Origin: a virus
Strand: one strand, 5' to 3'
Virus record (IMG/VR): IMGVR_UViG_3300037245_001091
Coordinates: 1-27,687 of that record
DNA length: 27,687 nt
In this document: one piece after another, positions 3,417 through 27,687 of the stretch
Numbering within the stretch: the stretch's first letter is position 1
Layout: every line of letters begins with the position of its first letter
Notes under the pieces: model-generated
Database searches by the model: none
The model's input: the letters and a program-made list of their open reading frames with translations, nothing else
What the model was told of the DNA's origin: nothing
Position numbers and translations under genes: made by a program

Positions 3417-4844
3417 ATGAACTTTCTTAAGAAAGTTAGTCGACTTTACTTCGCCAACGATTTTGACACGGATGATCGCGCTTGGAATCCCATCGTTTGG
3501 GCTCAAGAGACTCTGGCCATTCTCGAAGAGAACATGGTCATCGGTCAGTTGGTGCACACCGATTTTAATGAGGAGATCGCCAGCTTTGGCGACGTTGTCA
3601 ATACCCGTAAACCGGGTGAGTTTGAGGCCGAGCGTAAGGGCGTCAATGACGATATTACGGTCCAGGACGCTACCGCGGTCAACGTTCCGGTGAAACTCGA
3701 CCAGCACATCCACACCTCCTTTATGATTCGGGACGGCGAGGAGAGCAAGAGTTTTGCCGATCTTGTCTCGCAGTACCTCGGTCCGGCAGGTACGGCGTTG
3801 GCACGGACTATTGATCGAATTCTGCTCGGTCAGGTCTACCAGTTCCTGGATAACGCTGCCGGCCAACTAGGTCAGGTTTCTGATACTGTAGTCAAGGGTT
3901 ACGTCCTTGATACGCGTGAGATTCTTAACCGAAACAACGCTTGGATGTCCGGACGGAATTTGATCGTAGCACCAGGTACCGAAACCGAGATGTTGAAGTT
4001 GGACACCTTCACCGAGGCCAACAAGGTCGGTGACGATGGTACGGCTTTGCGCGAGGCTTCTCTTGGCCGTAAGCTTGGATTCGACATTTTCATGTGCCAG
4101 AATGTGCCTGATCCAACGACTGCCGTGAGCACGCTTCACGCCGATGAGCTTGGTACCGGTGGTTCCAAGGGCGATCTGATATGGGCCGTCGACGACGGGA
4201 CCATTTGTACGGCTGGTCAGTACGTTGTGATTGAAGGCGACCTGCAGCCTTTCCGGATCACGGCTATCAACACGAATAATTGGACTATGGATCGTCCTTT
4301 GCGGACCGACATCGCGGTAGGAACCTCGGACATTACAGAGTTTCTTACCAACACAGTCGATTTGGCCGGTCACGCTGGCGTCACTTCTTACCCGACTGGA
4401 TATGCCAAGCGGATCAAGATTGACGACGATAGCAGCACGACTGCTGTTCCTATTCAAGGTCAATTGATTTCCTTTTCGTCTGGTGCTACTCTCAGATCCG
4501 GAGAGTACCGCATCATCCGCGTGATCTTGGATTCTACTGATTACTACATCCTGCTTGATCGCCCTCTTGATGCCGCTTTGTCGGATAATGACATTGTCAA
4601 TTACGGTCCGAATGGCGACTACAACTTTGCGTTCCATCGTAACGCGCTGTCGCTCGTGTCGCGACCGTTGGCGCAGCCACGAAGTGGAACTGGCGCGCTC
4701 AGTGGCGTCGCCAATTTCAACGACTTGTCCGTTCGTGTTACCATCACGTACAATGGTACGGCACAGGGACATCTCGTGACGTTGGATATTCTGGCTGGAG
4801 TGAAAGTGCTCGACGAGGACTTGGGCGCAGTCATGCTTGGTTAA
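3417..4844 (+). CDS. Major capsid protein, P22 coat protein family (HK97 fold)
   Basis: 475 residues from ATG 3417, chosen because GGAG lies six bases upstream; an in-frame ATG at 3405 has no ribosome binding site. The N-terminal third (NPIVWAQETLAILEENMVI, then ASFGDVVNTRKPGEFEA, then LDQHIHTSFMIRD) matches the pattern of P22 gp5-type coat proteins, which form the icosahedral shell with an HK97 fold. Residues about 225-390 (IWAVDDGTICTAGQYVVIEG and following) look like an inserted beta-rich region. The last 70 residues return to a beta-rich fold (NALSLVSRPLAQP...VRVTITYN). It follows the scaffold gene and is followed by a very stable hairpin, consistent with high and separately tuned expression. 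Confidence 0.9.
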   Translation: MNFLKKVSRLYFANDFDTDDRAWNPIVWAQETLAILEENMVIGQLVHTDFNEEIASFGDVVNTRKPGEFEAERKGVNDDITVQDATAVNVPVKLDQHIHTSFMIRDGEESKSFADLVSQYLGPAGTALARTIDRILLGQVYQFLDNAAGQLGQVSDTVVKGYVLDTREILNRNNAWMSGRNLIVAPGTETEMLKLDTFTEANKVGDDGTALREASLGRKLGFDIFMCQNVPDPTTAVSTLHADELGTGGSKGDLIWAVDDGTICTAGQYVVIEGDLQPFRITAINTNNWTMDRPLRTDIAVGTSDITEFLTNTVDLAGHAGVTSYPTGYAKRIKIDDDSSTTAVPIQGQLISFSSGATLRSGEYRIIRVILDSTDYYILLDRPLDAALSDNDIVNYGPNGDYNFAFHRNALSLVSRPLAQPRSGTGALSGVANFNDLSVRVTITYNGTAQGHLVTLDILAGVKVLDEDLGAVMLG

Positions 4845-5188: not shown

Positions 5189-5686
5189 ATGATACAACCA
5201 CGACGAAAAGCAACACGACACATTCGCAAGGTTCTGTACTCCTTGAAAAAGGAATACGGTTTCGCTGTGACGTTCTATAACGTGACTTCAGAGGATGTGG
5301 ACTATAAGACTGGTGTGCGTGAGAATGTCACGGACCACTTGAACGTCCGTAAAGTGATAATTCTGCCGCGTAACCTTAAGCAAAAGTTCGAGTTTGACTT
5401 AGCGTATGTTGCAGCCGGAAAGAATATGACTTATGGCGGTCTATATAACACCGGCACACGGAAGCTTATTGTAGACCGTAGAGACGTAGGCGATTTTGAA
5501 ATCAAAGTAGACGGCTACTTCACTTGGGAGAATCAACGCTACCAGATTGCTGAAGTCGAAGACTTTGAACTTAACACCGGGTGGGTGATCGTTGGTCGTG
5601 TAGTAGAAGGTGCTGTAAGGAATAAGATTGTAGATTTGAAAGCTGAATCACCACTAACATTCGCACAAGAAATTGGAGTCGCATAA
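5189..5686 (+). CDS. Probable head closure (stopper) protein
   Basis: 165 residues, beginning two bases after the previous stop. A basic N-terminal helix (RRKATRHIRKVLYSLKKEYG) is followed by a beta-rich body with alternating strands (TFYNVTSEDVDYKTG, RKLIVDRRDVGDFEI, YFTWENQRYQIAEVEDFE). Small beta-barrel proteins of this size between the capsid and tail genes commonly close the head after packaging and connect it to the tail. No family motif was recognised with certainty, so the call depends on size, fold character and position. The stop overlaps the next start (TAATG). Confidence 0.5.
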   Translation: MIQPRRKATRHIRKVLYSLKKEYGFAVTFYNVTSEDVDYKTGVRENVTDHLNVRKVIILPRNLKQKFEFDLAYVAAGKNMTYGGLYNTGTRKLIVDRRDVGDFEIKVDGYFTWENQRYQIAEVEDFELNTGWVIVGRVVEGAVRNKIVDLKAESPLTFAQEIGVA

Positions 5687-6198: not shown

Positions 6199-6824
6199 TG
6201 ACCAGTGTTTACGTAACAGTTCCGAACGGCAAAGGGTGGCTGCATAAGCATGTCCACTTTGCGATTTGTAATATCCTTTCGGATCGGCGGTACAGGGTGC
6301 GCCATGACTGTCCCACCCACAGCCCTTACGTAAATAATTTGCACCATTGCATGCATGATTTCCTTAACGGCGGGGAAGACTACTGGCTGTCAATGGACGA
6401 TGACAACCCCCCGACTAACAATCCCTTGGATCTAGTGGAGTTCGATTGTGACCTGATTGGTTTGCCCACGCCCGTCTGGCATAACTCCACACCAGGTGAC
6501 CGACCTTGGTACTTTAACGCACTGGACGCTGTCGGTGACGCGTACAAGCCGCATGAGCCCTGCAACGGATTGCAGGAGGTGGACGCAATTGGTAGTGGGT
6601 GTTTCCTTGTAAGTCGTAGGGTGATGTTAAAATTAAAGGATCAACAACCGTTCATGCGGGTGTGGAACCCTGATGGTACTGTCGAGGTCGGAGGCGATTA
6701 TTCTTTTTGTCGTAAGGTCAAAACCGCCAATTTCAGAATCTGGGCGCACTATGATTATCCTTGTCGCCATTTCAATGAGTTGGACCTGGTCGAGATGCTC
6801 CAAGCTATGCAAGGAATCAAGTAA
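6198..6824 (+). CDS. Glycosyltransferase, GT-A (family 2-like)
   Basis: 208 residues. Features typical of GT-A nucleotide-sugar transferases: a DDD motif (residues 67-69, in YWLSMDDDNPP) for metal and nucleotide-sugar binding; a GSGCFLVSRRVM stretch (about 132-143); a GGDYSFCRK acceptor-side acidic motif (about 165-173); and a terminal His in YPCRH (191). The length is short for the family, so this is a compact catalytic domain without membrane anchors. It sits between head-completion and tail genes with start and stop overlaps, so it is co-expressed with virion proteins. It could glycosylate a virion protein or modify host surface sugars; which one cannot be read from the sequence. Confidence 0.75.
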   Translation: MTSVYVTVPNGKGWLHKHVHFAICNILSDRRYRVRHDCPTHSPYVNNLHHCMHDFLNGGEDYWLSMDDDNPPTNNPLDLVEFDCDLIGLPTPVWHNSTPGDRPWYFNALDAVGDAYKPHEPCNGLQEVDAIGSGCFLVSRRVMLKLKDQQPFMRVWNPDGTVEVGGDYSFCRKVKTANFRIWAHYDYPCRHFNELDLVEMLQAMQGIK

Positions 6825-8356
6825 TGGCTAATACACCTTGGTGCGGAGTAGCTGACGTTAAGCTGTTCTTACAGAGTGGGCAATTTACGTCCACTATCAA
6901 AGATAGCGAGGATGTCTCAGGCGTCGACACTGATTGTGAAGGCGTATCGTGGGATGGGACAGACTCACCTTGGTGTGGTGCTACTGACGACAAGTTATAC
7001 TTGCAGTCTGGACAATTTACGTCCACGTTGAAAACTAGCAGGGATATAAATAGCGTTAATCCTACTATCAAAGCGATTTCTTGGGACGGCACTGATACGC
7101 CATGGGTTGGCACCTCTGTCGCCTCAAAATTATACTTACAATCTGCCCAATTTACTACAACAGTCAAGACTAGCGAGAACGTAGGAGGTGTAGAGGCATC
7201 ACCGTCTGGTGTGACATGGGATGGGACAAACACTCCATGGTGTGGCTGGGCAAATGATAAGTTCTGGTTAACATCAGGACAATTCACGTCCACGCTGAAA
7301 ACAAGCATTGTTGTATCAGGTATAGATACCAGAGTAGAAGGTATTTCTTGGACTGGAGTAGACACGCTAGCGTGCGGACTGCAGAACGATAAATTATATT
7401 TAGTGTCAGGGCAATTTACGACCACTGTCAAAACTAGTGAGGCCGTAGGCGGTGTAGTAGCATACCCGACTGGCATTTGTACAGCGGACGTTGAAGCCCG
7501 GATAGGTCCGCAGTCGAGCACGTTTGAAGAGACTGCAGAAAGCGATGTGACTTTCACCCAGGACGCCATAAGTCAACGGATTCGAGAATTATTCGCGGTA
7601 GATTCTGTTACGTTTACCTCGACTGCCGCGGTACAAAGTATATTCGGGGCTATAGCTGAGTCCACAGTTACGTTTACCTATACCGCTGTACCCCAAAAAA
7701 TTGCGTCACCACAGGCCGAATCTACGATTACGTTTGTCTCAATTGCTACTACACAAAGTACATGTAATGTGTCGGCGGAGTCAACAATTACATTTGACCA
7801 GGACATTATACTAGACATAGATAAGCTGCATGACGCAAACAACACGTTTACATTCACTCAGATTGCCAGCGCAAGTCATTTAGTATGCTACGACAGACCG
7901 CACTTGCCCCGATGGATAAAGGCATCTGTCAGTGAGCACTTTAGGCAGTTCGCAGAGGACAACGACATTCATTTCTTCGCCGAAGGAACCTATCGATACA
8001 CTCCCGAGCACCAACAATACATTGAATTCCGCATGGACGGGCCGGACGCCCAAGAGATTAGCAAAGGTTATTGGAAACTTGACGTTGAAATCAATATACT
8101 ATGGGGGTACAACCAGGACCATGACTTCCATGGACCAGAGCGTCTCAAGGGTTTGATCATGGAAGCTATGGATGAAATTTGTGTTTATAGATACGGCGAC
8201 GGGCAGTGTGATGCCCAGACTTTAGTCGGGCAACTGCGAAGAGTACATGAAAAACGCAATGCTACCCGCGTTAATGATTTTGGTCAGATCCGTCAGGATG
8301 TTAGAATGATGCAAGGAACAATTGAGTGTATGTACAAAATGTTCGTGACCGAATGA
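6824..8356 (+). CDS. Propeller-repeat / tail terminator fusion protein
   Basis: 510 residues in one uninterrupted frame. Residues 4-230: five repeats of 44-45 residues (pattern TPWCG..DKLYLQSGQFTSTLKTS....V.....GISWDG), with a final GICT strand that could close a five-bladed beta-propeller. Residues 238-352: six short beta repeats (AEStVTFTQtA). Residues about 363-510: a globular domain (RWIKASVSEHFRQF...AQEISKGYWKLDVEINILW...GQIRQDVRMMQGTIE) that resembles tail completion/terminator proteins, normally encoded alone at about 150 residues just before the tail tube gene, as here. The start overlaps the glycosyltransferase stop, with AAGGAA upstream. The N-terminal module recurs in the gene at 15366. 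The terminator assignment is inference from position and sequence style. Confidence 0.75.
   Translation: MANTPWCGVADVKLFLQSGQFTSTIKDSEDVSGVDTDCEGVSWDGTDSPWCGATDDKLYLQSGQFTSTLKTSRDINSVNPTIKAISWDGTDTPWVGTSVASKLYLQSAQFTTTVKTSENVGGVEASPSGVTWDGTNTPWCGWANDKFWLTSGQFTSTLKTSIVVSGIDTRVEGISWTGVDTLACGLQNDKLYLVSGQFTTTVKTSEAVGGVVAYPTGICTADVEARIGPQSSTFEETAESDVTFTQDAISQRIRELFAVDSVTFTSTAAVQSIFGAIAESTVTFTYTAVPQKIASPQAESTITFVSIATTQSTCNVSAESTITFDQDIILDIDKLHDANNTFTFTQIASASHLVCYDRPHLPRWIKASVSEHFRQFAEDNDIHFFAEGTYRYTPEHQQYIEFRMDGPDAQEISKGYWKLDVEINILWGYNQDHDFHGPERLKGLIMEAMDEICVYRYGDGQCDAQTLVGQLRRVHEKRNATRVNDFGQIRQDVRMMQGTIECMYKMFVTE
6833..7513 (+). repeat. Five propeller-like repeats, copy A
   Basis: Five in-frame units with conserved Trp at residues 6, 50, 94 and 139 (fifth unit has Ala at 183), spacing 44-45 codons, each with a QSGQFTSTLKTS-like core. 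The module ends in GICTADVEARIGPQ, matching the end of copy B. Confidence 0.85.
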
Positions 8357-8406: not shown

Positions 8407-10128
8407 ATGAATAATTTTCTCAGGTCAGAGCCGCAACTCACGTGCTTCGCTCCGATTGACTTGAAGCAGGCGGATCTTTACATCCGCGACGGTTTCGATA
8501 ATGATACGAGCACGCCTACTACTGGTGCTGTTGAGCCGATTGGTGAATCAATTATCGCTATCAGTAATATGGATACTGTTGTTCCAATTGGTGCTACAGT
8601 CAAATTTGGCAGTGATGACACTGAGTACACTGTCTCGGCCAAGGTTGATGGTGGCGGAACTAACGAACAGCAAGTCATCCAGATTGATGATGCCACCAGC
8701 GGCGGGACTTTCAAGCTGCAATTCAGCGGCGAGGACACCGGTACTATTGCGTACGGCGCGAATGCCGCGACGGTTCAATCTGCGCTTGAAGCTCTGAGTA
8801 CGATCGGTGTTGGTAAGGTGACTGTCTCGGGTGCGAGTCCCGAGTGGACGGTTACGTTCGTCAGCACGTTTGCATCCACTGATGTAGACCTCATTACCGG
8901 CGACGGTACGAGTCTCACTGGCGGTGACCTAACTGATGTCGACGTCACGGAGACGACGACCGGCGTAGCGGCCGTGAATGAAGTCCAAACTCTCACGGTC
9001 ACAGGCACGCCTGCTGGCGGTGACACCGTCATCAGTTATGGCGGCGACTCTACTGGGGACATCCCGTATGACGCGGAAGCCGCTGACGTCGAACTTGCGC
9101 TTGAGGCGATGGATTCCATTCCACAGGGTGAAGCTACGTGTGGTGGCGGGCCGTGGCCAGGTTCTGCAATCACGGTGACCTTCAGTGGTTCACTAGCAGG
9201 ACAAGACGTCACAATGCTGACGAATGTCGATAGCTTCACTGGGGGTACCGCCCCGGTATTGACCATTACTGAGACTACTCCCGGCGTGGAGGCTGTCGAC
9301 GAAGTCCAGACTGTTCATATCAACAGTAGCGTTACTGGTGGTACGTTCACGCTTACGTATGCCGGGCAGACTACGTCTCCAGGGATTGCGCCAGATGCCA
9401 CTGCTGCGCAGGTTAAAGCGGCTCTTGAGTCGCTTAGTAATATCGATCCAGGTGATTTGACGGTTACTGGCGGCGCCGGCCCCAAAAAGGATTGGATCGT
9501 CGAATTTGGCGGCACTCTTGCTGCTACTGACGTCGCTGCGATGACCGGTACTGGCACGAGCCTTACGGGTGGTAGTTCCACGACTGTCTCCACTTGGGAG
9601 TCTGTCAAGGGAGTCACGGCAACTGGCAGTTCACAGATTACTGTGAGTCCAGGGCTTGTTTTGGCTACGACTGTTGGGGGTTCCGTGACCTTTAATGGCC
9701 GTAAGTTGGAAATCAAAATCGGTGAAGGAAACCTGACCTTCACGGAGAACACTCCGCACGATTACATCCTCGATCGAGGTCTACTGGACACAGTGCGTCT
9801 GGCCGATCAAGAGCCGATGGATGTGTCTTTCGAGTTTACTTGGGAATTCTTGAGCGCTGTAAGTGCCTCTGGTACTCCGACTATCAAGGAAGCTCTCAAG
9901 AATACCGGTGAGGCTTCAGACTGGGAATCTTCCTCTGACGATGCGTGCGAGCCATACTGCGTTGATATTGAAGTCAACTACGACCCCGGTTGTGGTGGCG
10001 ATAATACGGAACTGATCGTGTTGCAGCAATTCCGGACAGATTCTCTTGACCATAATCTGCGGGACTCACAAGTCTCGGCGACTGGAAAATGCAACGTTAC
10101 TGGAGCTGTTGAAACCCGAGGAGCCTGA
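8407..10128 (+). CDS. Tail tube (major tail) protein with three inserted repeats
   Basis: 573 residues from ATG 8407 (GGAG six bases upstream); a start at 8326 would lie inside the previous gene. The N-terminal ~85 residues and C-terminal ~170 residues form a beta-rich body (TVKFGSDDTEYTVSAKV at the front, SQITVSPGLVLATTVGGSVTF and RKLEIKIGEGNLTFTEN at the back). Between them lie three tandem repeats of 105-107 residues (about 86-190, 191-297, 298-403), each with the pattern NEVQT...GGTFTLTY...ATAAQVKAALESL...TVTGG...VTFSGTLAGTDV...TGGTA. The repeats seem to be inserted in a loop of the tube fold. The next gene is the tail assembly chaperone, the usual order. Tube assignment is from position, size and the shared leader with the capsid gene. 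Confidence 0.75.
   Translation: MNNFLRSEPQLTCFAPIDLKQADLYIRDGFDNDTSTPTTGAVEPIGESIIAISNMDTVVPIGATVKFGSDDTEYTVSAKVDGGGTNEQQVIQIDDATSGGTFKLQFSGEDTGTIAYGANAATVQSALEALSTIGVGKVTVSGASPEWTVTFVSTFASTDVDLITGDGTSLTGGDLTDVDVTETTTGVAAVNEVQTLTVTGTPAGGDTVISYGGDSTGDIPYDAEAADVELALEAMDSIPQGEATCGGGPWPGSAITVTFSGSLAGQDVTMLTNVDSFTGGTAPVLTITETTPGVEAVDEVQTVHINSSVTGGTFTLTYAGQTTSPGIAPDATAAQVKAALESLSNIDPGDLTVTGGAGPKKDWIVEFGGTLAATDVAAMTGTGTSLTGGSSTTVSTWESVKGVTATGSSQITVSPGLVLATTVGGSVTFNGRKLEIKIGEGNLTFTENTPHDYILDRGLLDTVRLADQEPMDVSFEFTWEFLSAVSASGTPTIKEALKNTGEASDWESSSDDACEPYCVDIEVNYDPGCGGDNTELIVLQQFRTDSLDHNLRDSQVSATGKCNVTGAVETRGA
8662..9615 (+). repeat. Three tandem ~105-codon repeats in the tail tube gene
   Basis: Units start at 8662, 8977 and 9298. 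Each encodes an N/D-E-V/Q-Q-T start, a GGTF/GGDT strand, an AA.VQ.ALEAL helix, a T(V)TF..(S/T)LA/FA..DV segment and a closing TETT.GV strand. Protein similarity is evident; DNA similarity is only partial, so the duplication is not very recent. Confidence 0.85.
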
Positions 10129-15307: not shown

Positions 15308-15365
15308 CCCCACTGAGCAGGTGAGTGGAGGAATGGACTCCCCCACGTAACCTGATTTTAGAATC
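15308..15365 (+). other. Short untranslated gap before the second propeller gene
   Basis: 58 nt. Contains a weak stem (GTG..GGAG 15321-15330 against CTCC..CAC 15338-15346) and a five-codon frame (ATG 15333 to TAA 15350) directly after GGAGG, too close to it for efficient initiation. No ribosome binding site is visible for ATG 15366, so start of the next gene may depend on re-initiation. Nothing else recognisable. Confidence 0.35.
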
Positions 15366-17516
15366 ATGGCAGACACACCTTGGATCGGACACAACGGCGA
15401 TAAGCTATACCTGCAGAGCGGGCAGTTTACGTCCACGCTTAAGACTAGCCAGTCTATAACCGGTACAGACAATCACCCATGGGGGATAACATGGGATGGA
15501 ACAAACACTCCGTGGTGCGGATCACGGCATGACCGACTGTATCTGCAGAGCGGGCAGTTTACGTCCACGCTTAAGACTAGCCAGAGCGTTGGTACCCTGG
15601 AATTATTTGGGATCTCATGGGACGGAACTAATACCCCGTGGGCTAGTCTGTCCGAGAATAAATTATTTCTGCAGAGCGGTCAGTTCACGTCCACCCTTAA
15701 AACCAGTAGGGCCGTGGGCACAATCAATGACCTCGTGACCGACGTATCCTGGGACGGTACAGATACTCCGTGGTGCGGAGTTGACCCAATTAGGATCTAT
15801 CTACAAAGTGGGCAGTTCACGTCTACACTTAAAACTAGCGAAGACTTGTCCGCAGTTGACTCTGCTGCACAAGGCGTATCCTGGGACGGTGTTAACACTC
15901 CGTGGTGTGGCTCTGGCGATGATAAATTGTATCTGCAGAGTGGCCAATTTACGTCGACTATTAAAGACAGTGAATACGTAGGTAGCGTTGAAATCGAGGC
16001 GGCCGGTATATGTACCAACAATGTTGCCGGACGTTTAGGTCCGCAAATACATACCGAGACCACTGCGTCGTCAGTTACATTCAGCCAGACTGCGTTACGT
16101 GGCGCAGTATGTATTGAGACCGCCGAGAACACAGTCACGTTCACTCAGATCGCAGTGGGAGGTGTAATTCTATCGAGCTACCCTGTCACCAGTACGGTAA
16201 CATTCAGTCAGACTGCTACTGTTATACAGATGCCAATGTACCTTGTGGCTTCTAATGCTATTGTATTTACGCAAGAGGCTAGGATACCTGATGTTTTCGT
16301 GGCCACAGCTCTGAACACTTTCACGTTCTCACAGGCAATAGCCCGTGCCGGGACCGAGTATTTCGATGCATCGAACGCCGTAAATTTCTTCGTAGAGGCG
16401 GATGCCACGCTAAATGGAACTACTATATACTCACGTATTGTTGGGCACGTTCTTGATTTCACACATGAAGCTACTCAAGGTATATCATTCAAAGTAGCGC
16501 GCGCTGAATCAACGGTAGCATTCACGCAGGCAATGCTGGCTATATTCCCACGGTCAGTGATAGCGGCGTCGTCACTTGAGTTTTTACAAACTATACGGTA
16601 TACTCCGGTAAAAGTTTATGCCGTATCTGACTTAGCTGAAATAATTTGGACTGTACCAGAGGACGGCAATGTCACGCTGGAACCAACTGGTTTTCAGCAA
16701 ACTATTGGACTTACTCAAATAGCTGGTCAGTCACCACCTGATTCCAGAATCAATTTTGAGCACATCGCAGACGTAGTACATATTAGAGACGCCGACGGGG
16801 TCAGTAAGGTAGCTGAGAGTGTAGTTACATTCACGCAGTCATCACAAGTAACTTACGGAGGTGGATCTACAGTCACTTTCTTGCAGTCAGCGACCGCAGA
16901 CTTATGTACGCCAACAAAGTCTACACTCGCATTCACGCACACTGTCGACCTGGAATCTACCGTGACTAGGAACACGTCAAATACTGTTGAATTCCGACAG
17001 AGCGCTTACCATACGCTCACACGTAACGGCGAGTTGCGTGACGTACAATGTGACGTTACCGCGGAGTTACCTCACTATGATAATGTGCAGTTCGCATACC
17101 CGATAACATCTGTTACGCATACTCTTACATTACGTGGCGCAGAATTCGGCAATCGCGAGCGCATGCATTTCCAAAGAATAAATCGAGAAACCCGCGGTGG
17201 CACCTTGATCGTCTTCGCTGACCCGATTTGGCCAAAGAATGACCATTTGGTTATGGACTTTGTGGGTCTAACTGAAACTGAGACTAACCAAGTCAGGTCG
17301 TTCATCAAAACAACTTTAGGTAAGCAAGTAACACTACGTGACTGGGAAGGTAGGAACTGGGTGGGAGTGATAGTGTCGCCGGACAACCCAGTTGTGCGCG
17401 ATGGCGCGCTTTGCATGAACACGGTCACGATAGAGCTGGAAGGTCACGCCGGGTATGATGTTACTACATCTTCGGCTGTGACCTTCACTCAGACTGCTGT
17501 GGGGACAAAAACATGA
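15366..17516 (+). CDS. Propeller-repeat / tail-tip fusion protein
   Basis: 716 residues. Residues 4-227: five repeats of 42-44 residues with conserved Trp at 6, 50, 92, 136 and 180, closing with GICTNNVAGRLGPQ; this is homologous to the N-terminus of the gene at 6824. Residues about 230-550: roughly a dozen short beta repeats of the AeStVTFtQtA type. Residues about 557-700: a globular domain (YPITSVTHTLTLRGAEFGNRERMHFQRIN; FIKTTLGKQVTLRDWEGRNWVGVIVSP; CMNTVTIELEGHA) resembling the small protein encoded next, probably Dit-like or another tail-tip element. A last VTFTQTA unit ends the protein. The homologous start MADTPW (MANTPW in the other copy) supports ATG 15366 despite the missing ribosome binding site. 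Function of the propeller is unknown; carbohydrate binding is a hypothesis. Confidence 0.75.
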   Translation: MADTPWIGHNGDKLYLQSGQFTSTLKTSQSITGTDNHPWGITWDGTNTPWCGSRHDRLYLQSGQFTSTLKTSQSVGTLELFGISWDGTNTPWASLSENKLFLQSGQFTSTLKTSRAVGTINDLVTDVSWDGTDTPWCGVDPIRIYLQSGQFTSTLKTSEDLSAVDSAAQGVSWDGVNTPWCGSGDDKLYLQSGQFTSTIKDSEYVGSVEIEAAGICTNNVAGRLGPQIHTETTASSVTFSQTALRGAVCIETAENTVTFTQIAVGGVILSSYPVTSTVTFSQTATVIQMPMYLVASNAIVFTQEARIPDVFVATALNTFTFSQAIARAGTEYFDASNAVNFFVEADATLNGTTIYSRIVGHVLDFTHEATQGISFKVARAESTVAFTQAMLAIFPRSVIAASSLEFLQTIRYTPVKVYAVSDLAEIIWTVPEDGNVTLEPTGFQQTIGLTQIAGQSPPDSRINFEHIADVVHIRDADGVSKVAESVVTFTQSSQVTYGGGSTVTFLQSATADLCTPTKSTLAFTHTVDLESTVTRNTSNTVEFRQSAYHTLTRNGELRDVQCDVTAELPHYDNVQFAYPITSVTHTLTLRGAEFGNRERMHFQRINRETRGGTLIVFADPIWPKNDHLVMDFVGLTETETNQVRSFIKTTLGKQVTLRDWEGRNWVGVIVSPDNPVVRDGALCMNTVTIELEGHAGYDVTTSSAVTFTQTAVGTKT
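15375..16046 (+). repeat. Five propeller-like repeats, copy B
   Basis: Five units, 42-44 codons each, core LYLQSGQFTSTLKTS. Units 1 and 2 share a perfect 42-base direct repeat (15411-15452 and 15543-15584, 132 bases apart). Units 3 to 5 carry close variants, and unit 5 (SGQFTSTIKDSEYVGSV) is most like unit 1 of copy A. Confidence 0.9.
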
Positions 17517-17878
17517 TCCAATTAGCGGCGCCATACCCGACTGTCAGGCAACTTCTGTACCTTCCAAACCCAGGATTCGGGGACAGTGATAATGACACGC
17601 ACACTATCAATCTCCGGTACACGCAGGACGGTAAGCAGTACACCTACGTCAAGACTAAGAACGACCGAGTCAGATTGCTGATGGTTTTCGAGATGCACCG
17701 ACAAAAAGCTTTAGAATTTAGGTTGTTTTTGAAGCTATACTTTGATTCTGAAATCAGATTGATTGACCATCTTGGACGCACGTGGGTGGGAAATTTCACG
17801 ATTAACCCGTTTGAATTCACTTCCGTAACGGGTGAATGGCAAACGATAAACATTGAGTTCGAGGGCCTTGAACTGTGA
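17513..17878 (+). CDS. Small tail-tip protein, Dit-like domain
   Basis: 121 residues, start overlapping the previous stop (ATGA). Beta-rich, with FLPNPGFGD-like opening (LLYLPNPGFGDSDNDTHTINL), a central helix (EMHRQKALEFRLFLKLYF) and a closing segment (RLIDHLGRTWVGNFTI...WQTINIEFEGLEL). The closing segment parallels the C-terminal domain of the preceding fusion protein (RDWEGRNWVGVIV...NTVTIELEG), so the two are probably related tail-tip domains. Proteins like this usually sit between tape measure and hub, as here. The next gene starts at an overlapping GTGA. Confidence 0.6.
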   Translation: MIQLAAPYPTVRQLLYLPNPGFGDSDNDTHTINLRYTQDGKQYTYVKTKNDRVRLLMVFEMHRQKALEFRLFLKLYFDSEIRLIDHLGRTWVGNFTINPFEFTSVTGEWQTINIEFEGLEL

Positions 17879-20796
17879 GAAATCTTTCAGCATCAGCATT
17901 ATCTAAGATACGTGAACAGTATGGCAGTGAACCGATCACCATTCTTGATATCGAATGGGCCCAGGATTCTATTACGCAGTACGCGGACCGTGACGTGCAG
18001 TCGGTCAAGGGTAAGATTCTTGAAGTATCATCCCTTGATTCTGTGATCACGATCTCGAACAGTAATGACTCGCAGCAAATAACTGTGACTCTTGACGACA
18101 GTGATGGTACGATCAAAAGTATTATGGACAGCCAAGACATCCATAAGACTAGCGTCTGGGTGTACCAGTTCTTTGACGGACTGAGTCTTGTCGACCGCTT
18201 TTTGCTGTTCAAGGGCACGATCAATTCTCCTGTCTCCTGGAGGGAGTCTGACCGTTCAGTCACCTTCACAGTCCTCAGTAAGATCGAAGACAAGGAGGTT
18301 GGATTCTCGCCAGAGGAAGGCCAGTTTCCATTCATCCCGAGAGAATTGATAGGCAAGACTTGGCCCTCATGCTTTGGGACACCTATCGATGTTCCTTGCG
18401 TCCAGATCAATAAAGCCATAACTGGCAGGACGCTGTGTGGTGTAGGAATTATAAGCGGCCAGGGCATCCACGTAAACGCTACTACTGAGGGCAAAGTCCC
18501 GGACTTACGTGAGCAAAGCGCGAGGGCACAGTACCTCAATAACCTTGCTAATATCTTTGAGAGTGCGGCTTCAACTCATGAAGGGTACGTGCCCGGCAGC
18601 CAACAAGATCTAATTTTTCCCAATAACGAGGACTATACAAATAAGGCACGCGCTTACCGTGAAGAGTCTAACGGAGTGTACCGACAGATCACAGAGACGG
18701 TAGCACAATACCTACAACAACTCAGATGCGCCAGATTACGGCGGGCTAGTACATTAAGTGACGCTGAGGATACTGGCGAAGGTTGCAATCCGTTAGAGAT
18801 CCTCGGCGGCGAAGACTTCCCTCGCGGTACAATCACGTTAGATATAAATGGAGGGTTGTTCACTGGGTATTTTCTAGGGGACGGTAATGAGTTCAAAATC
18901 ACGTCGCGTACGCACCCAGACAATGAGGCGAGAGCTGCGGAACAGCTAACTAATGATGAGTCTTTACCTGCCGGTTGCGGCCCAGTCACACCACCAGGAA
19001 AACATATTCTTTGGGAGACGCAGGTTCCGGCAGGGGAAGGCAATGCTACACCTATTGGGAATATTGGGTCTTCCTCTTCTAGTGGGCTGTTTGACGTATT
19101 CCGTAAAGACTTTTATCTGTTCTATAATGCTCCAACACGTAGGAGTACCAGCCAGAATCAGCGAGCCATCCACTTTTGGGCGGACGCCGGAACAACTGTG
19201 ACAATGGCTGAGGACGAGCCCGTTTATCATGTGGTTAGCATCGTTCCAGGTACTGTTCTACAGGTCAAAGCTTTCAAGGATATTAACGGCGTGAGAACGT
19301 TAGTAAACGTACCGGACGATTTGTGGGTGGACGAAATAGCAGAGTACGGAAGCATCACGGCGGTGCAGATAAAATTGAATCGTTCGCTGACCACATTCGA
19401 GGATCAAAACTGGGAGGGTGACACACTATATGTCACTTTCGAGTCGTCAGTCGGGCCCAACATCGTTGATATTGTGGAGTATCTGATAGATACGTACACA
19501 GATCTGACATATGATAGTACGAGCTTCAATAGTGTCAGAACAAAATTGGCACCGTTCCCGGCTAACTTTGCGCTATTAGACAGAAAGAACATCGTCGAAG
19601 CATTACAAGAGATTGCGTTCCAATCACGATGTAGTATTCGACTTATCAACGACGTATTCTACATTGCTTACTTAGCTGAGGAGCCTACGACCGTGGATAC
19701 TTTCTATGTGAGTGACATTGAAGCCAAGAGCGTGGAAGTGGAACTCACTTCCACTGAGGACCTAGTAACCAAATACACTGTGGATTGGCGCGTGAGTTAC
19801 GCGCAGGACGAAATGAACAAGATTATTGTGCGCAACAACGTGTCCAAGTACGGTATCCAGGAAGGCGGCGACGAATACTACATCTACAACCAGCCGGACA
19901 TCATACACAAGGTGGCCACATTCTGGCTGATTCGGAAATCAAATACGTGGAAGCATATTAGTTTCAATACGTTCCTACATAAGATGAACGTCGAGACGTT
20001 TGACGCTGTTACTCTTGACCTGCTTGACTACGTGTCTGATAGTCCAGTTAAGAGTATCGTCGAACAGGCTCAGTTCAATTCTGACAATCAGACAATCAAC
20101 TTTGAATGCTGGACGCCTGTGAAAGCAGGAACAATGGTGCCATACCTGTTCGCGTGGCCCGCGGACGTGCCGGCGGAATGGGTCTTCCCAACGGACGACG
20201 AAATTGATTTGGGCTTGGCCGGCGGTAACAATATCGGAGAGAACGCTACCGGAGAGTTGCCAATCGGTGACACATCCCATTTGGACTCCGGCGACATCTT
20301 TGTGGGCGGCATCAACATCCTGTTTGGTCCTCAGACAGACCGCGGTGACAGTCACCCGTCTGATCGGGGATTCTCGGCCCAGGACGTCATTATCGGCACT
20401 GAGTTCGCTGTGATTTCAGCATCAGCTAATCCGAACCCGTATCTTGGCCTGGAATACGAGGAAGATATTCTTCCCCCGCCTGTGGACGTAGATGTGTCCG
20501 GAGTCACGGAAATAGTTCTCGAAAGAACCAAGGTTATATCCACTAAAGTGAAGGGCCAATTCAATTACCTCAGCGACATCCTGTCCTTAGAAGATGGTAA
20601 GCCGTTAGCGATACATACGGCTACGCTGTTCAGTGGTAAGGACCAAGACGGAAGTTGCAAGCGAAGTCCTTACGATTTCAAATATGACCCGAAGTGTACT
20701 CTTTGGGTGGCTGGGTCGGCTTACCTGGCTGAAGAGGAGTGTAATGACTTGAAAGATAGCCAGTCGGGTGAAAAACTCGGGGAATGCGACGAATAA
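17875..20796 (+). CDS. Tail hub / tail-associated protein
   Basis: 973 residues, starting at GTG 17875 inside the previous stop codon. The N-terminal domain has alternating strands (EPITILDIEW, QQITVTLDDSDG, SVWVYQFFDGLSLVDRFLLFKGTINSPVSWRESDRSVTFTVLSKIEDKEVGF) typical of phage tail hub proteins. A central region includes NFALLDRKNIVEALQEIAFQSRCSIRLINDVFYIAYL (about 560-600), resembling hub domains of Tal/J-type proteins. The C-terminal ~250 residues are low in similarity, rich in Gly/Asp and end in a Cys-rich tail (CKRSPYDFKYDPKC; CNDLKDSQ; ECDE). The hub closes the tail tube and holds receptor-binding proteins. No lysozyme or peptidase motif was recognised. Confidence 0.75.
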   Translation: MRNLSASALSKIREQYGSEPITILDIEWAQDSITQYADRDVQSVKGKILEVSSLDSVITISNSNDSQQITVTLDDSDGTIKSIMDSQDIHKTSVWVYQFFDGLSLVDRFLLFKGTINSPVSWRESDRSVTFTVLSKIEDKEVGFSPEEGQFPFIPRELIGKTWPSCFGTPIDVPCVQINKAITGRTLCGVGIISGQGIHVNATTEGKVPDLREQSARAQYLNNLANIFESAASTHEGYVPGSQQDLIFPNNEDYTNKARAYREESNGVYRQITETVAQYLQQLRCARLRRASTLSDAEDTGEGCNPLEILGGEDFPRGTITLDINGGLFTGYFLGDGNEFKITSRTHPDNEARAAEQLTNDESLPAGCGPVTPPGKHILWETQVPAGEGNATPIGNIGSSSSSGLFDVFRKDFYLFYNAPTRRSTSQNQRAIHFWADAGTTVTMAEDEPVYHVVSIVPGTVLQVKAFKDINGVRTLVNVPDDLWVDEIAEYGSITAVQIKLNRSLTTFEDQNWEGDTLYVTFESSVGPNIVDIVEYLIDTYTDLTYDSTSFNSVRTKLAPFPANFALLDRKNIVEALQEIAFQSRCSIRLINDVFYIAYLAEEPTTVDTFYVSDIEAKSVEVELTSTEDLVTKYTVDWRVSYAQDEMNKIIVRNNVSKYGIQEGGDEYYIYNQPDIIHKVATFWLIRKSNTWKHISFNTFLHKMNVETFDAVTLDLLDYVSDSPVKSIVEQAQFNSDNQTINFECWTPVKAGTMVPYLFAWPADVPAEWVFPTDDEIDLGLAGGNNIGENATGELPIGDTSHLDSGDIFVGGINILFGPQTDRGDSHPSDRGFSAQDVIIGTEFAVISASANPNPYLGLEYEEDILPPPVDVDVSGVTEIVLERTKVISTKVKGQFNYLSDILSLEDGKPLAIHTATLFSGKDQDGSCKRSPYDFKYDPKCTLWVAGSAYLAEEECNDLKDSQSGEKLGECDE

Positions 20797-22098: not shown

Positions 22099-22703
22099 AA
22101 TGCTGTCATCAGCATTCTTCGGTAGCATTCTGCTGTCGCAATCGTGTCCTGAAGCGCATCGTGAGCTTTGTGATTCGTAACTTCCAGGGCGTTACATAGA
22201 TACCTGAGCGCGAACTTCTGAAACAAGTACGGCTGTTCTCGAAAGCTCATCAGGTCGCTATGGAATGCAGCCACAGGCATCGTGTCGCGGAAGTGCGGAT
22301 GGAAGAACTGCTCGAAGCTCTCATTGCCAAGCCAGTCTACGAGGAAGCCCTTATCGAACGGCCAGTTCTGAGCCATTGGCATCAGCTTTTTGTAGATCGG
22401 CAGGTCCAGTCTGACGAACCAGTCGTCAAACAAATCAGCGGCTGTGAAATAGTCAACAGCGTGCTGTTGACGCCTAACAAACTCTGCACGCGTTATCTGT
22501 ATCGCCTTCTTTTCTATGCGGTCAGGGTGCCTGATTTTAATATCAAGCGCGAATGGCAAGACGCCTTTCAGCGGCTTGATATCAGTATCCAACGGTAGGA
22601 CAGCAATCTGATGTATGTCGTGATACCCTGCGCGCAGACCGGTAGTCTCCACGTCCACGCAGGCAAGGATATTGCCATTAAGATGTACCATTCCTCGGCT
22701 CAT
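22095..22703 (-). CDS. DEDDh 3'-5' exonuclease (DnaQ-like)
   Basis: 202 residues. RNase H-fold exonuclease motifs are complete: ExoI DVETTG (Asp17, Glu19), ExoII NWPFDKGF (Asp117) and ExoIII HKAHDALQDT (His181, Asp186), which places it in the DEDDh class. It would remove nucleotides from DNA 3' ends in proofreading, repair or processing; no polymerase gene is in the window. GAGGTGA precedes ATG 22703 on the minus strand, and the start overlaps the end of the upstream gene. Last gene of the leftward replication operon; its stop overlaps the tail operon stop by four bases. Confidence 0.88.
   Translation of the reverse strand: MSRGMVHLNGNILACVDVETTGLRAGYHDIHQIAVLPLDTDIKPLKGVLPFALDIKIRHPDRIEKKAIQITRAEFVRRQQHAVDYFTAADLFDDWFVRLDLPIYKKLMPMAQNWPFDKGFLVDWLGNESFEQFFHPHFRDTMPVAAFHSDLMSFREQPYLFQKFALRYLCNALEVTNHKAHDALQDTIATAECYRRMLMTAF
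22099..22116. terminator. Small hairpin at the convergent gene junction
   Basis: AATGCTG (22099-22105) pairs perfectly with CAGCATT (22110-22116) around TCAT. On the minus strand the arm runs into TTTTA, resembling a weak intrinsic terminator for the leftward operon; on the plus strand TTCTTC follows. It starts right after the tail gene stop and lies in the last codons of the exonuclease gene. AT-rich stem, so strength is doubtful. Confidence 0.4.
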
Positions 22704-24208: not shown

Positions 24209-24412
24209 TCAATCTCCTGAGGTTACGGTACCGGTACTCCAATCTCCGCGTACTTCCAATATTTTAAGATGCGGAACTCGGATGGGAACTAGATGCACGC
24301 CTACGAAGGTGCGGCCAGTGCGCACGTATTGCGCAATGCCGTTGTCGAAGGCATACGATAGTTGCCTTCGTTGTTGTAGGTCAAGTTTTTCTATTTTGGA
24401 TCTAATGCTCAC
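24209..24412 (-). CDS. Small hypothetical protein
   Basis: 67 residues from GTG 24412, overlapping the end of the primase-helicase gene by 11 bases. Basic N-terminal helix (SIRSKIEKLDLQQRRQLSYAFDNGIAQYV) and a beta-like remainder (TFVGVHLVPIRVPHLKILEV). Not recognised; it does not match HicA despite preceding the HicB-like gene. The end (TVTSGD) overlaps the ribosome binding site of the next gene. The weak start signal leaves some doubt. Confidence 0.5.
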   Translation of the reverse strand: MSIRSKIEKLDLQQRRQLSYAFDNGIAQYVRTGRTFVGVHLVPIRVPHLKILEVRGDWSTGTVTSGD

Positions 24413-27086
24413 TAATCAATTTCCCATCGTAGAAAATCAACTTGGGTTGATCGGTGTTCTCTGGCTCAGTAAACGACAGATTGCCGACGTAGTGCGGCGC
24501 ACCTATTCGGCCCTTCGGATACTTGTGCGGAAGTTCGCGGCCCATCTTGATCTTACTCCATTCATGCACTTCCATTGGGTCAAGCCACTCTTGGAATCGC
24601 CCGAACAAGTCAGCGACTTGGATGGACTCACCTGGGGCGTCATAACATACTTCGTCGATGAAGATTTCCAGCGATGACCGGTTGCTTTCGGCCGTCAGTT
24701 TCTTGATGTCAGACTCAACAATGGGCACATTCAAACGGTCGTTAGACGGCGGTATCTCAACCTGCAGAATATCAGCGATGAAATCAGGAGCCTCCTGCTT
24801 TAACAGTTGATGCAATTGATTCCTAGGAATCATGTCCATCATGTCCAGTACCGGAACATGAATCATCGTGATTCTAGTATCACCCGAGAAAATGGGGCAT
24901 TCTTCGATACTATTTCCGGTCTGTACAAAGTGGACAGTGTTGCGAACTTGGTACGGGGTGCGGCCTTTGTGGTGGATCATCAATGTCTTCGACATGACCC
25001 AATCCTTGATCCTGTTCCGTGCCGCCGCGGCCTTCTGTAGGTTAGTCTCTTCGACCACGCACAGCACGGCACCCTCTAGCTCGCCGTTGAACCCTGCCGA
25101 TGAAATCAATGCGACGTCCGCTCGCACATACCCGCGAGTCATCAGCATTTCAATAGCCTCATGGAACGTGGACTTGCCAGTCTTCTCCTCCTTGGAGTAT
25201 AGGAACAGGTACGGCAGTTGCTCCTTGGGCGCTTGGAATAGACTAGCTACCCATATCTTCAGGTAGTCGGCGCCTGTTGACACACCGTTAGCCTGACACC
25301 ACCCATCAGTCTTAACCGCGGAATCCAGGCCCTTGCCACACTGTTCTAGAATCTTATACCACGTGGGGCAATTGTATGGTTCCTCCTCTTTAGGCTTGTA
25401 TCGAAGCTGCGGAGCGTCACGGTTCCACAGCCGCCCGCCTAAGAATTCTTCCTTGAAAGGCTCGTTGGCAAGAATCCAAGGTTCCAGTACACAGTCCCCA
25501 AGGATCTTATTGATTTCAGCATCACGCAAACCGTGAGATTTCATCGCGAGTCTGACATGCGTGTACGGTTCTTCACGCCACTTGCCTGCGGCATTCACGA
25601 CCCATCCGCGGTCGGTGCTTTTGTCAGTAGATAGATGCCTGATGATGTCGTCGTGCTTGATCGCCTCGGGCTCAAAAGTCTCTTGAAGATTAGCATTGAA
25701 TATGCGCGTCCAGTGTCCTTTGTCCTCACGCCAGCCAGGGATATCGTCATAGCGGTCTGTCGACTCTTTCTTGAATGATACCACCAGCCGCCCGTCTTTA
25801 TGCTGATGAATCTTGGCTTTATGCGCCCACGACCACTCTGGTAGTTTGATCTTGATACCTAGCGCCCTAGCGCAGGCAGCCACAGCCTTGCTGTCGTTGA
25901 AGTGGAAGGCTCCTTTTTCGTCTTCCATGCCACCATAGTTCTGTGCGGCATTTTTGAGAGAGGGATCACAGTTGAAGTAGCATCGCGTGTACCCGCTACC
26001 GTCTTGCTCCCAGTTGTTAGATTCCTCTACTCCTTTGGCGTACCTACGGACGACCCACCCTCCTTCTGGGTGATCGATCGGGAACGCGAAGCAGTTGTGG
26101 TCAGCGCCCTGTGTGGCGCCTGTAGCACCTGTTGATTTAGTGTCGAATATGCCGCGCAACTGGAGTTCCTTGTGCGCTTTCTTCAGGTCTAACGTGTGAC
26201 AAACCATCATGTAATGGTCCGCGTCCCACCACCATTGAGCTTGATTTTTCTCCAAGTGATCCATCAGTTTTTTGTGCGTGTCATCCAGCTTAACGCGTGG
26301 GCGCTGGCCTGTCAGTTCTTCAAACTTGGATTCGTCGTCGACGAACTCCGGCTTAATGCGCTTGCGATTGCCTTTGACGACGTCAACGTGGTCCTGCCAA
26401 TTGACCGGAATATCAATGAGGACTTTGCCCCGCTTGATAAGCTCCAGACCGCGGTTAGCAGGAGTCATCTTACGATGCCAGATCCAAAGAACTGATCCGC
26501 ATACGTCTACTTTGCTGCTGAAATCGAATCCAGTGGTGGCCGCCATTTTACCTAGAATTGCGCGCGATAGGGCGGAGTGATCATTATGCGTTGCCGTGGG
26601 CACGCGGTCTAGATAGACGTATAGATGGAGTCCACTGCCAGATGTCGAGCGACGGACCGTCACCCACGGTAGGTTGATGGCGGCCTCGCGGACTGCGTCT
26701 AGTTCAGTGTCAGTGAGAGAGTTAGCACCTGAGTGGCCGGCAATAGCGTCGAAATCATAACCCACCCATCTGGATACTCGCTCTTTCCAATCCCAACCAG
26801 TTAGGCCGATGCCGTCCGCGTGCGCCGCCAAATCATAGTTGATTTTGAAATCATTGTTCTCAGGATTGGAGAACGCCTTCTTTGGAATTCTGAATGAGTA
26901 CCACTCTTGCGCGCCATCAGAGTAGGAATGCCAGGTTCGGCCTTTGAAGCCCTCAGTAGAAACGCGGTCGCCTCCGTCTTGAGCGACGTTGACTTGGACC
27001 TCCATTCCCAGATAGTATGATTCTGCTAAATCAGCGTGAGTCATCGCTGTCAAGAAAGTTTTAATGGCTTCCGATCGCGTGGGCAT
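24402..27086 (-). CDS. AEP primase / SF3-type helicase fusion
   Basis: 894 residues. An N-terminal primase-like domain of the archaeo-eukaryotic primase type: YDFDAIAGH (Asp111, Asp113, metal-binding), STSGSGLHLYVYLD (His154) and a later DVCGSVLWIWHRK. The C-terminal D5/SF3-like ATPase (DUF5906-like pattern) has Walker A KTGKST (636-640), Walker B AVLCVVEE (Glu679-680), NRIKDWVMSKTLMIHHKGRTPY, the sensor-like FVQTGNS, and the arginine region FSGDTRITM. It would prime and unwind the phage replication fork. ATG 27086 has no clear ribosome binding site; a leaderless or weak start is possible. First gene of the leftward operon, transcribed away from the control region. Confidence 0.88.
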   Translation of the reverse strand: MPTRSEAIKTFLTAMTHADLAESYYLGMEVQVNVAQDGGDRVSTEGFKGRTWHSYSDGAQEWYSFRIPKKAFSNPENNDFKINYDLAAHADGIGLTGWDWKERVSRWVGYDFDAIAGHSGANSLTDTELDAVREAAINLPWVTVRRSTSGSGLHLYVYLDRVPTATHNDHSALSRAILGKMAATTGFDFSSKVDVCGSVLWIWHRKMTPANRGLELIKRGKVLIDIPVNWQDHVDVVKGNRKRIKPEFVDDESKFEELTGQRPRVKLDDTHKKLMDHLEKNQAQWWWDADHYMMVCHTLDLKKAHKELQLRGIFDTKSTGATGATQGADHNCFAFPIDHPEGGWVVRRYAKGVEESNNWEQDGSGYTRCYFNCDPSLKNAAQNYGGMEDEKGAFHFNDSKAVAACARALGIKIKLPEWSWAHKAKIHQHKDGRLVVSFKKESTDRYDDIPGWREDKGHWTRIFNANLQETFEPEAIKHDDIIRHLSTDKSTDRGWVVNAAGKWREEPYTHVRLAMKSHGLRDAEINKILGDCVLEPWILANEPFKEEFLGGRLWNRDAPQLRYKPKEEEPYNCPTWYKILEQCGKGLDSAVKTDGWCQANGVSTGADYLKIWVASLFQAPKEQLPYLFLYSKEEKTGKSTFHEAIEMLMTRGYVRADVALISSAGFNGELEGAVLCVVEETNLQKAAAARNRIKDWVMSKTLMIHHKGRTPYQVRNTVHFVQTGNSIEECPIFSGDTRITMIHVPVLDMMDMIPRNQLHQLLKQEAPDFIADILQVEIPPSNDRLNVPIVESDIKKLTAESNRSSLEIFIDEVCYDAPGESIQVADLFGRFQEWLDPMEVHEWSKIKMGRELPHKYPKGRIGAPHYVGNLSFTEPENTDQPKLIFYDGKLISEH

Positions 27087-27250
27087 GGCATGATTTTCGT
27101 GTCAAATTTCTTGTGATTGCGAAGTCATAGTGACGAAATCAAATCATTATCGACCGAGGGCGTCCACCTACGGCCCGTAGTAATATACGTATAATCGGCC
27201 CACATTGTTCATTCTTTACCGGATTATCCCTTTTCCTTATCGCTCTATGT

Positions 27251-27270
27251 CTTTCTTTCTTTCTTTCTTT
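27251..27270. repeat. CTTT tetranucleotide microsatellite (five units)
   Basis: Five perfect CTTT units make an all-pyrimidine strand. It lies in a 19-codon frame starting at 27247 that lacks any ribosome binding site, so a coding role is not claimed. Confidence 0.9.
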
Positions 27271-27334
27271 CTATTCTCTAGAGAAGGCTATGTATATGGT
27301 AAATAGTAGTAGGAAGTGGTGTACATAAGTTATT

Positions 27335-27400
27335 CGTATATATAGGCGCGCTATTTTCCTAATCCTGCGCTTTATGCGAACAATGCGCGCCATATATACG
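27335..27400. repeat. Large inverted repeat in the control region
   Basis: CGTATATATAGGCGCGC (27335-27351) is the reverse complement of GCGCGCCATATATACG (27385-27400) except for one extra A. The arms are separated by 33 bases. The right arm continues into a 12-bp palindrome. Candidate paired operator or replication-protein site. Confidence 0.8.
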
Positions 27401-27420
27401 TATATTCCTTAGCATAGGCG

Positions 27421-27449
27421 TTGTGCGCACTAACGTGGAATGATATGAT
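27421..27449 (+). promoter_or_regulatory. Candidate sigma-70-type promoter with extended -10
   Basis: TTGTGC (27421-27426), 17-base spacer, TATGAT (27444-27449) preceded by TGA, an extended -10. The -10 element matches consensus at five of six positions and the -35 at three. Located 35 bases before the rightward gene at 27484. Confidence 0.45.
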
Positions 27450-27483
27450 TTAGCCTCTTTAACAGGAGAATCACGGTGAAACG

Positions 27484-27687
27484 ATGACTTTGAAATCAAT
27501 GATGGACGACGTAGTGAAAGTGACTCCGAGAGCACGTGAGCGCATAGGCAGATGTTGGCGCGACGATAGGGTACGGGATCGCGAGATGGATTCAGAATTG
27601 GCTGAGGTGTTCGCGGAACTCCTAAGCGAGTATATGTACGCTCTAGCGTGGTGTGGAGGCGCATCTGCTTTCGGGCCTGATGGAGAA
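27484..27687 (+). CDS. Hypothetical early protein, 3'-truncated by the window end
   Basis: 68 codons visible, open to the last base. Begins MTLKSMMDDVVKVTPRARERIG, with a basic/acidic middle (CWRDDRVRDREMDSE) and LAEVFAELLSEYMYALAWCGG. Not recognised. A strong AGGAGA (27464-27469) is 14 bases upstream of ATG 27484, but six bases from GTG 27476, which opens a three-codon frame whose TGA stop overlaps this ATG. The ATG at 27499 is another possible start. Divergent from the replication operon, so probably an early gene. Confidence 0.55.
   Translation, partial: MTLKSMMDDVVKVTPRARERIGRCWRDDRVRDREMDSELAEVFAELLSEYMYALAWCGGASAFGPDGE

Follow-up and report, generated by a model that had tools for sequence, protein, structure and literature searches.

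Genes flanking the divergent region and their relatives

The window, that is, the whole 27,687-nucleotide stretch of a virus record analysed here, carries phage coat and tape-measure genes as judged by profile matches. Among the leftward genes at its right end are those for an exonuclease, a dNMP kinase and a primase-helicase (DUF5906). The window gave no Rfam match at gathering threshold, and no tRNA was found. The original prediction had placed positions 27087-27483 between the primase-helicase gene and a rightward gene, which is right, as the two reading frames start at 27086 and 27484 on opposite strands:

24402-27086, minus strand: primase-helicase gene (DUF5906), left member of the divergent pair (PF19263, 5.8e-14; PHROG 1156, DNA primase, 4.4e-26).
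27484-27687, plus strand: start of the rightward operon, a small ORF taken from the ORF list and cut by the record end; it resembles the 60-aa ORF before parB1 in relative L002 (51% over 35 aa).

Two relatives reach beyond the window end, namely L002, which lies in the 63,905-b record G001 and whose primase is 96% identical, and L003 (61%). The rightward operon of L002 runs from the 60-aa ORF through ParB1 (326 aa), orf217 and orf178 to an SNF2-type helicase. Its parB1 gene occupies L002:4372-5349 on the minus strand. For the window, parB1 itself would lie beyond the end of the record, and its presence is inferred from the relatives. We gathered 24 loci by a ParB search and 80 by a primase search, the latter being the best 80 of 265 relatives. 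In 68 of the 80 primase loci parB1 is divergent to the primase gene; the remaining 12 are cut by contig ends, the primase match beginning at most 642 b from the end. Among loci long enough to tell, every one had parB1, which left no relatives devoid of it to act as a control. The locus counts given below are not independent, since near duplicates occur among them (L067/L068, L100/L101, L066/L071 and L084/L085). As for the host, 26 stretches of genome contigs matched a pattern and none of them encodes a relative.

Two matched promoters predicted back to back

Besides the inverted repeat of the original prediction, treated below, the region contains a second one, with 32-nt arms at 27179-27210 and 27378-27409 that are 81% complementary. 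Each arm holds a promoter-like sequence and is followed, in the direction in which it points, by a short box made of tandem half-sites:

27179-27210, minus strand: predicted promoter arm toward the primase gene, holding TATACGTATA (27184-27193); sigma70-like TGAACA-18-TATATT, from 27211 to 27182.
27378-27409, plus strand: predicted promoter arm toward the rightward operon, holding ATATACGTATAT (27394-27405); CGAACA-18-TATATT at 27377-27406, assigned by eye by analogy with the primase side.
27136-27146, minus strand: box A, made of tandem half-sites, TGATTTGATTT when read in the direction of the primase gene; one of two window copies.
27441-27451, plus strand: box B, tandem half-site box TGATATGATTT toward the rightward operon, one of two window copies.

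By hand count, the predicted −10 sequence and the box are 35 b apart toward the primase gene and 34 b apart toward the rightward operon. The hexamers taken alone are weak evidence, since 3 promoter-like matches were found in 26900-27600 vs 1.4 in shuffles. When 55 of 69 divergent regions were searched for inverted pairs (window included; regions shorter than 250 b or longer than 600 b left out), the best pair exceeded all six shuffles in 47, and the strongest pairs were about 47-90 b long with roughly 80-94% identity. On these sequence features, 27087-27483 is best described as two matched putative promoters standing back to back. In L066, L069, L099, L100, L103, L107 and L119 the two divergent promoters are near-identical within a genome and unlike between genomes. 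The likeness within each genome looks as if it were maintained by gene conversion or by a shared factor.

Palindromes and the local inverted repeat

The five palindromes that had been described in 27087-27483 are present, as five perfect ones with arms of at least 4, and the region also holds the local inverted repeat (no strand is assigned to these features):

27184-27193: palindrome TATACGTATA, inside the primase-side promoter arm.
27274-27285: palindrome TTCTCTAGAGAA, between the promoter arms; whole in L002 too.
27337-27344: palindrome TATATATA.
27394-27405: palindrome ATATACGTATAT, inside the rightward promoter arm.
27423-27430: palindrome GTGCGCAC.
27331-27404 (outer limits; arms about 27335-27351 and 27385-27400): local inverted repeat, score 17.5.

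Two of the palindromes do have a common core, as had been noticed; it is TATACGTATA, and both sit in the promoter arms. The number of palindromes alone is near chance, since dinucleotide shuffles gave a mean of 2.5 and 10.6% of 2000 reached five; finding two whose arms are 6 or longer is less common (1.1% of shuffles). The gapped inverted repeat was borne out, its score of 17.5 lying above the maximum of 11.5 in 60 shuffles, and we regard it as real. In L002, read by eye, an A has become G in each of its two arms, on the same strand both times; as these arm changes are not compensatory, a conserved hairpin at 27331-27404 is not supported. A role for TACGTA as a conserved operator was likewise rejected: its 13 copies in 40 kb of divergent regions amount to 0.32 per kb vs 0.16 elsewhere, so that it is of local interest only, inside the promoter arms.

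A TTTC run lies at about 27250-27272, between the promoter arms, and differs in L002. Perfect palindromes also occur elsewhere in the window: AACTTTCTTAAGAAAGTT at 3420-3437, near the coat gene start, and TGATTCCTAGGAATCA at 24817-24832, inside the primase gene.

A palindrome family dispersed over the genome

Three features were absent from the original prediction: the inverted repeat with 32-nt arms, the tandem boxes and a family of TGATTT/AAATCA palindromes. Repeats near 26840, 27114 and 27485 suggested the pattern TGAYTTNNAARTCA, and when up to one mismatch is tolerated the window contains 12 copies of it vs 0.21 expected, a number reached by none of 100 shuffles; 3 of the 12 sites had suggested the pattern and 9 are independent of its choice. 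The sites, which have no strand, come from the motif scan and the alignment to G001:

27114-27127: site A, the palindrome TGATTGCGAAGTCA, some 28 b upstream of where the primase gene starts; at most one mismatch in G001.
27485-27498: site B, palindrome TGACTTTGAAATCA, at the start codon of the small ORF.
26840-26853: TGATTTTGAAATCA, inside the primase gene.
22532-22545: TGATTTTAATATCA.
19928-19941: TGATTCGGAAATCA.
18888-18901: TGAGTTCAAAATCA.
17743-17756: TGATTCTGAAATCA.
15353-15366: TGATTTTAGAATCA, touching the start codon of ORF 15366-17516.
9963-9976: TGATATTGAAGTCA.
8080-8093: TGACGTTGAAATCA; two mismatches in G001.
5491-5504: CGATTTTGAAATCA; perfect in G001.
1026-1039: TGATTTTGAAATCG.

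Over these 12 sites, 140 of 144 core bases are identical in G001 vs 84.7% over the alignment, and 11 of the 12 are within one mismatch there. G001 (64 kb) contains 24 copies of TGAYTTNNAARTCA and G002 contains 4, the backward control giving 0 in the window, G001 and G002. At least one copy was found in 19 of 25 records, with 26 in G003, 19 in G024, 14 in G005 and 11 in G014 (backward control, 0 to 3).

A search of the window that presupposed no motif returned as best palindrome TGATTT with a 2-b gap, present in 9 copies vs at most 4 in 40 order-2 Markov sequences, and a palindrome of like kind was best in most ParB1 records. In five other phages the palindromes stayed within their own null, and TGATT palindromes were few (0-5) in these five, lambda and N15. 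The best single words of control phages had a z as high as 11.2, in the range of weak ParB1 records, and in seven control phages, over 40-50 kb, the motif gain rose as high as 27.5; weak cases are therefore poor evidence. Across relatives the motifs fall into several classes (TGATT with 14 or 15 b, TGAGT, GATG, TGATA, GTTTA and others). The motif search gave a gain above 28 in 32 of 80 loci; with the divergent region masked, a gain of 20, the threshold, was reached by 33 of 81 loci, and of those below it many are short. No palindrome family was found in some long parB1 loci, e.g. G010, L096 and L110; G010 (L013) is a 67.9-kb record that has ParB1 and no dispersed palindrome family of TGATT type. 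The cultured phages Bowser, Dmitri, VarioGold and Aval, in which a distant ParB is encoded and a ParA is not annotated, yielded no clear family, the best words in cultured phages being of low complexity or few; Yong-DA has a ParA.

Placed on genes called by a greedy ORF script, 241 sites in ten records lie mostly within genes and nearly all in two codon phases, which could suggest that codon use or a common peptide creates the palindromes. The confinement to two phases is what one expects if TGA has to be kept out of frame. Of the 241 sites, 43 lie close to a gene start vs 26.3 expected. With 32 sites intergenic vs 14.3 expected, with the excess over Markov sequences and the empty backward control of the window and G001, and with a motif that varies between relatives yet agrees with their boxes, an artefact of composition or coding has next to no probability.

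Boxes and start-proximal sites change together with the motif

We then turned to the boxes. The window has just two copies of TGATTTGATTT when at most one mismatch is allowed, one at 27136 and one at 27441, inverted with respect to each other. The divergent regions of the 80 loci, 46 kb in all, contained 106 boxes, and the remaining 1.24 Mb contained 61. Where the motif class is another one, several phages build the box from their own half-site. When the divergent region was masked before the motif class was assigned, 24 of the 30 classed loci, of which the window is one and some are near duplicates, had a box of their own half-site, and one, L092, had a box of another class. Box and palindrome half-sites thus change together between phages, so one reader for both is likely on this sequence evidence. 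The half-sites of the box are 5 b apart, which places them on opposite helix faces, an odd arrangement for one dimer; this counts against the reading proposed below.

The palindromes themselves are found close to the two divergent genes. Among 32 strong-motif loci (gain above 25; L126 is included, although its motif is a tandem array and not a dispersed palindrome), 26 had an own-motif site at 0-70 b before parB1 vs 11% expected, the parB1 start codons coming from a simple script, and 25 had one within −70 to +10 of the primase match start vs 12% expected; the training data of the motifs used for both counts contained the divergent region.

ParB1 resembles ParB proteins and has no ParA partner in the records searched

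In relatives, ParB1 has the PF02195 (ParB_N) and PF17762 (HTH_ParB) domains; its nearest solved chains are Spo0J, Noc, ParB and KorB, the mean pLDDT of the predicted model being 83. All 68 ParB1 sequences lack the box II and box III glutamates and retain the box II Arg and the box III Asn; box II is mostly GLHR or GLQR. The ParA-binding motif [LFI]G[KR]G[LFI], as defined in the part of PMC12704722 available, was found in none of the 68. ParA-type proteins were absent as well, PF13614 from all 48 records searched (0/25 and 0/23), some of which are fragments, and PF01656 from 24 records, some of which may be fragments. With no ParA found and no ParA-binding motif, ParB1 does not qualify as a member of a ParABS system. 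Two traits of KorB-type proteins are present as far as sequence goes, namely operators scattered over the replicon and an operator at the protein's own promoter (the 26 of 32 strong-motif loci).

These findings bear on a partition of plasmid style, in which the palindromes would be parS and a ParA of the host would move the phage genome. The ParB fold and the parS-like palindromes would suit it; the ParA searches, the missing ParA-binding motif, the many scattered sites and the absence of a tyrosine integrase (PF00589) from 16 of 16 records speak against it and make it very improbable.

ParB1 is the likely reader of the sites

Sequence comparisons make ParB1 the likely reader of both kinds of site. 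The main competitor would be a different protein of the phage, with ParB2 the foremost candidate; this HTH_ParB protein, the second one, is encoded 3-10 kb past parB1 on the same strand (18 relatives; 19779-20033 in G001). Two HTH_ParB matches were obtained in 18 of 19 records searched, one match in G041 being below the curated cut-off and the window, a fragment, having none, and ParB2 retains the canonical ENxxR box III in 44 of 44 sequences. Own-motif sites were found at parB2 in 10 of 25 cases (0.32 expected), which is no clear enrichment, compared with 21 of 25 at parB1 (0.32 expected); moreover, the recognition helix of ParB2 is nearly constant across motif classes, whereas that of ParB1 varies (19 rows). 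These two differences favour ParB1, and we consider a reader other than ParB1 unlikely. The gene trees do not discriminate between candidate readers. In trees of 25 rows the motif class changes 9 times for parB1, 9 for the primase, 9 for SNF2 and 8 for orf217, and the reader cannot be picked out by phylogeny; L073, being ambiguous, was left out of the trees and of the ParB1/ParB2 comparison. Column covariation in the ParB1 HTH is weak, slightly above that in the rest of the protein.

With ParB1 as the reader, the arrangement probably represents a control region autoregulated by ParB1 and common to two divergent operons, on one side that of the primase-helicase and on the other the one that in relatives codes for ParB1, two unknown proteins and the SNF2-type helicase, together with ParB1 sites over the whole genome in the manner of KorB or Noc. 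Two near-copy promoters would point outward, with a box about 35 b beyond each −10 and then a 14-bp palindrome near the start codon. ParB1 would bind boxes and palindromes and, by repression, keep both operons, its own included, in balance. It may also load at the scattered sites in Noc or KorB fashion and act there as an organiser or long-range regulator of the genome that needs no ParA motor. The suggestion that the region is a regulator-binding switch therefore stands at the level of sequence, with matched promoters, a box and a palindrome on each side and a genome-wide family; the motifs that carry it are not those listed at first, though two of the listed ones lie in the promoter arms.

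The other suggestion, that replication starts in the divergent region through the adjoining primase-helicase, fared less well. The region adjoins the primase gene and is AT-rich (GC 0.41), and in relative L126 an 8-mer is repeated 24 times between the divergent genes. However, none of the five related genomes covered in full has a GC-skew extreme at this place, the window is devoid of iterons except for the TTTC run, and the matched promoter arms and the boxes near the starts indicate transcription. An origin here gains no backing from skew or iterons and is quite improbable. The array of L126 consists of 24 x GGGACCGG in the 1483-b parB1-primase region, is iteron-like and belongs to one of 68 relatives examined.

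Relation to known systems

The nearest parallels to an autoregulating ParB1 with scattered sites are found on plasmids, in Bacillus and in other phages. SopB of the phage-plasmid N15 is alike in being a ParB-type protein with palindromic sites on a phage genome, and it has several centromere sites. N15 differs in encoding both ParA and ParB and in its few sites; a comparable palindrome family was not found in our N15 scan. Noc has dispersed palindromic binding sites and exerts its effect on the chromosome of the host and on cell division. Its palindrome differs in sequence from those described here. Noc is alike in its fold and, in the part of PMC12704722 available, as an orphan ParB paralogue that has no ParA-binding motif; the same source, within that part, describes orphan ParB proteins as common on mobile elements with roles largely unknown.

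KorB with its operators OB on plasmid RK2 is alike as a ParB-fold protein with an HTH and many operators on one replicon, 12 according to a reference title. Its box II, GARRYR, has no glutamate, as in ParB1, and yet KorB hydrolyses CTP, as stated in the part of PMC11790492 available. Unlike ParB1, for which no ParA was found, KorB has the ParA homologue IncC and the partner KorA; here, in addition, the carrier is a phage and the sites are mainly within genes. By analogy, the sites may work like KorB/OB or Noc, with many sites for one ParB-type protein.

The nearest phage precedent is that of the Cluster O mycobacteriophages (Corndog, Firecracker), for which more than 30 symmetric 17-bp dyad repeats genome-wide, about one third of them in genes, were reported in 2015 with function unknown; these phages have no integrase and encode a ParB-like protein that is not proposed as the reader in the part of the report available (PMC4351075). 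Our scan recovered the Firecracker repeat, with 26 exact copies in a 36-kb stretch. Unlike in the family studied here, the repeat has another sequence, the ParB-like protein is distant (E 1.8e-9) and the nearest upstream site is 361 b from its gene. The stoperators of Cluster A, as presented in the available part of PMC9283540, are also repressor sites spread across a phage genome; they are asymmetric, oriented with transcription and read by an immunity repressor, whereas the present sites are symmetric and a tyrosine integrase was not found. In the literature matches listed, titles and abstract starts describe no ParB as the reader of phage-wide dispersed sites.

In this large family of uncultivated phages, an orphan ParB and scattered symmetric repeats are found together and joined by a sequence link. 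A more far-reaching reading, which we put forward tentatively and hold somewhat less probable than its opposite, is that the orphan ParB is a coat or organiser of the whole genome: it would load at dozens of parS-like sites with no ParA, mark and shape the phage DNA and set its own dose via paired promoters that are alike within and unlike between genomes, with site, box and reader switching specificity together. With this link, and with specificity that changes naturally across the family, direct tests become feasible of binding, of its dependence on nucleotide and of what it does to the phage genome.

Elsewhere in the window, two large ORFs, 6824-8356 and 15366-17516, contain repeated units like SWDGTDTPWCG and LYLQSGQFTSTLKTS; they probably encode beta-repeat proteins, the fold being a guess.
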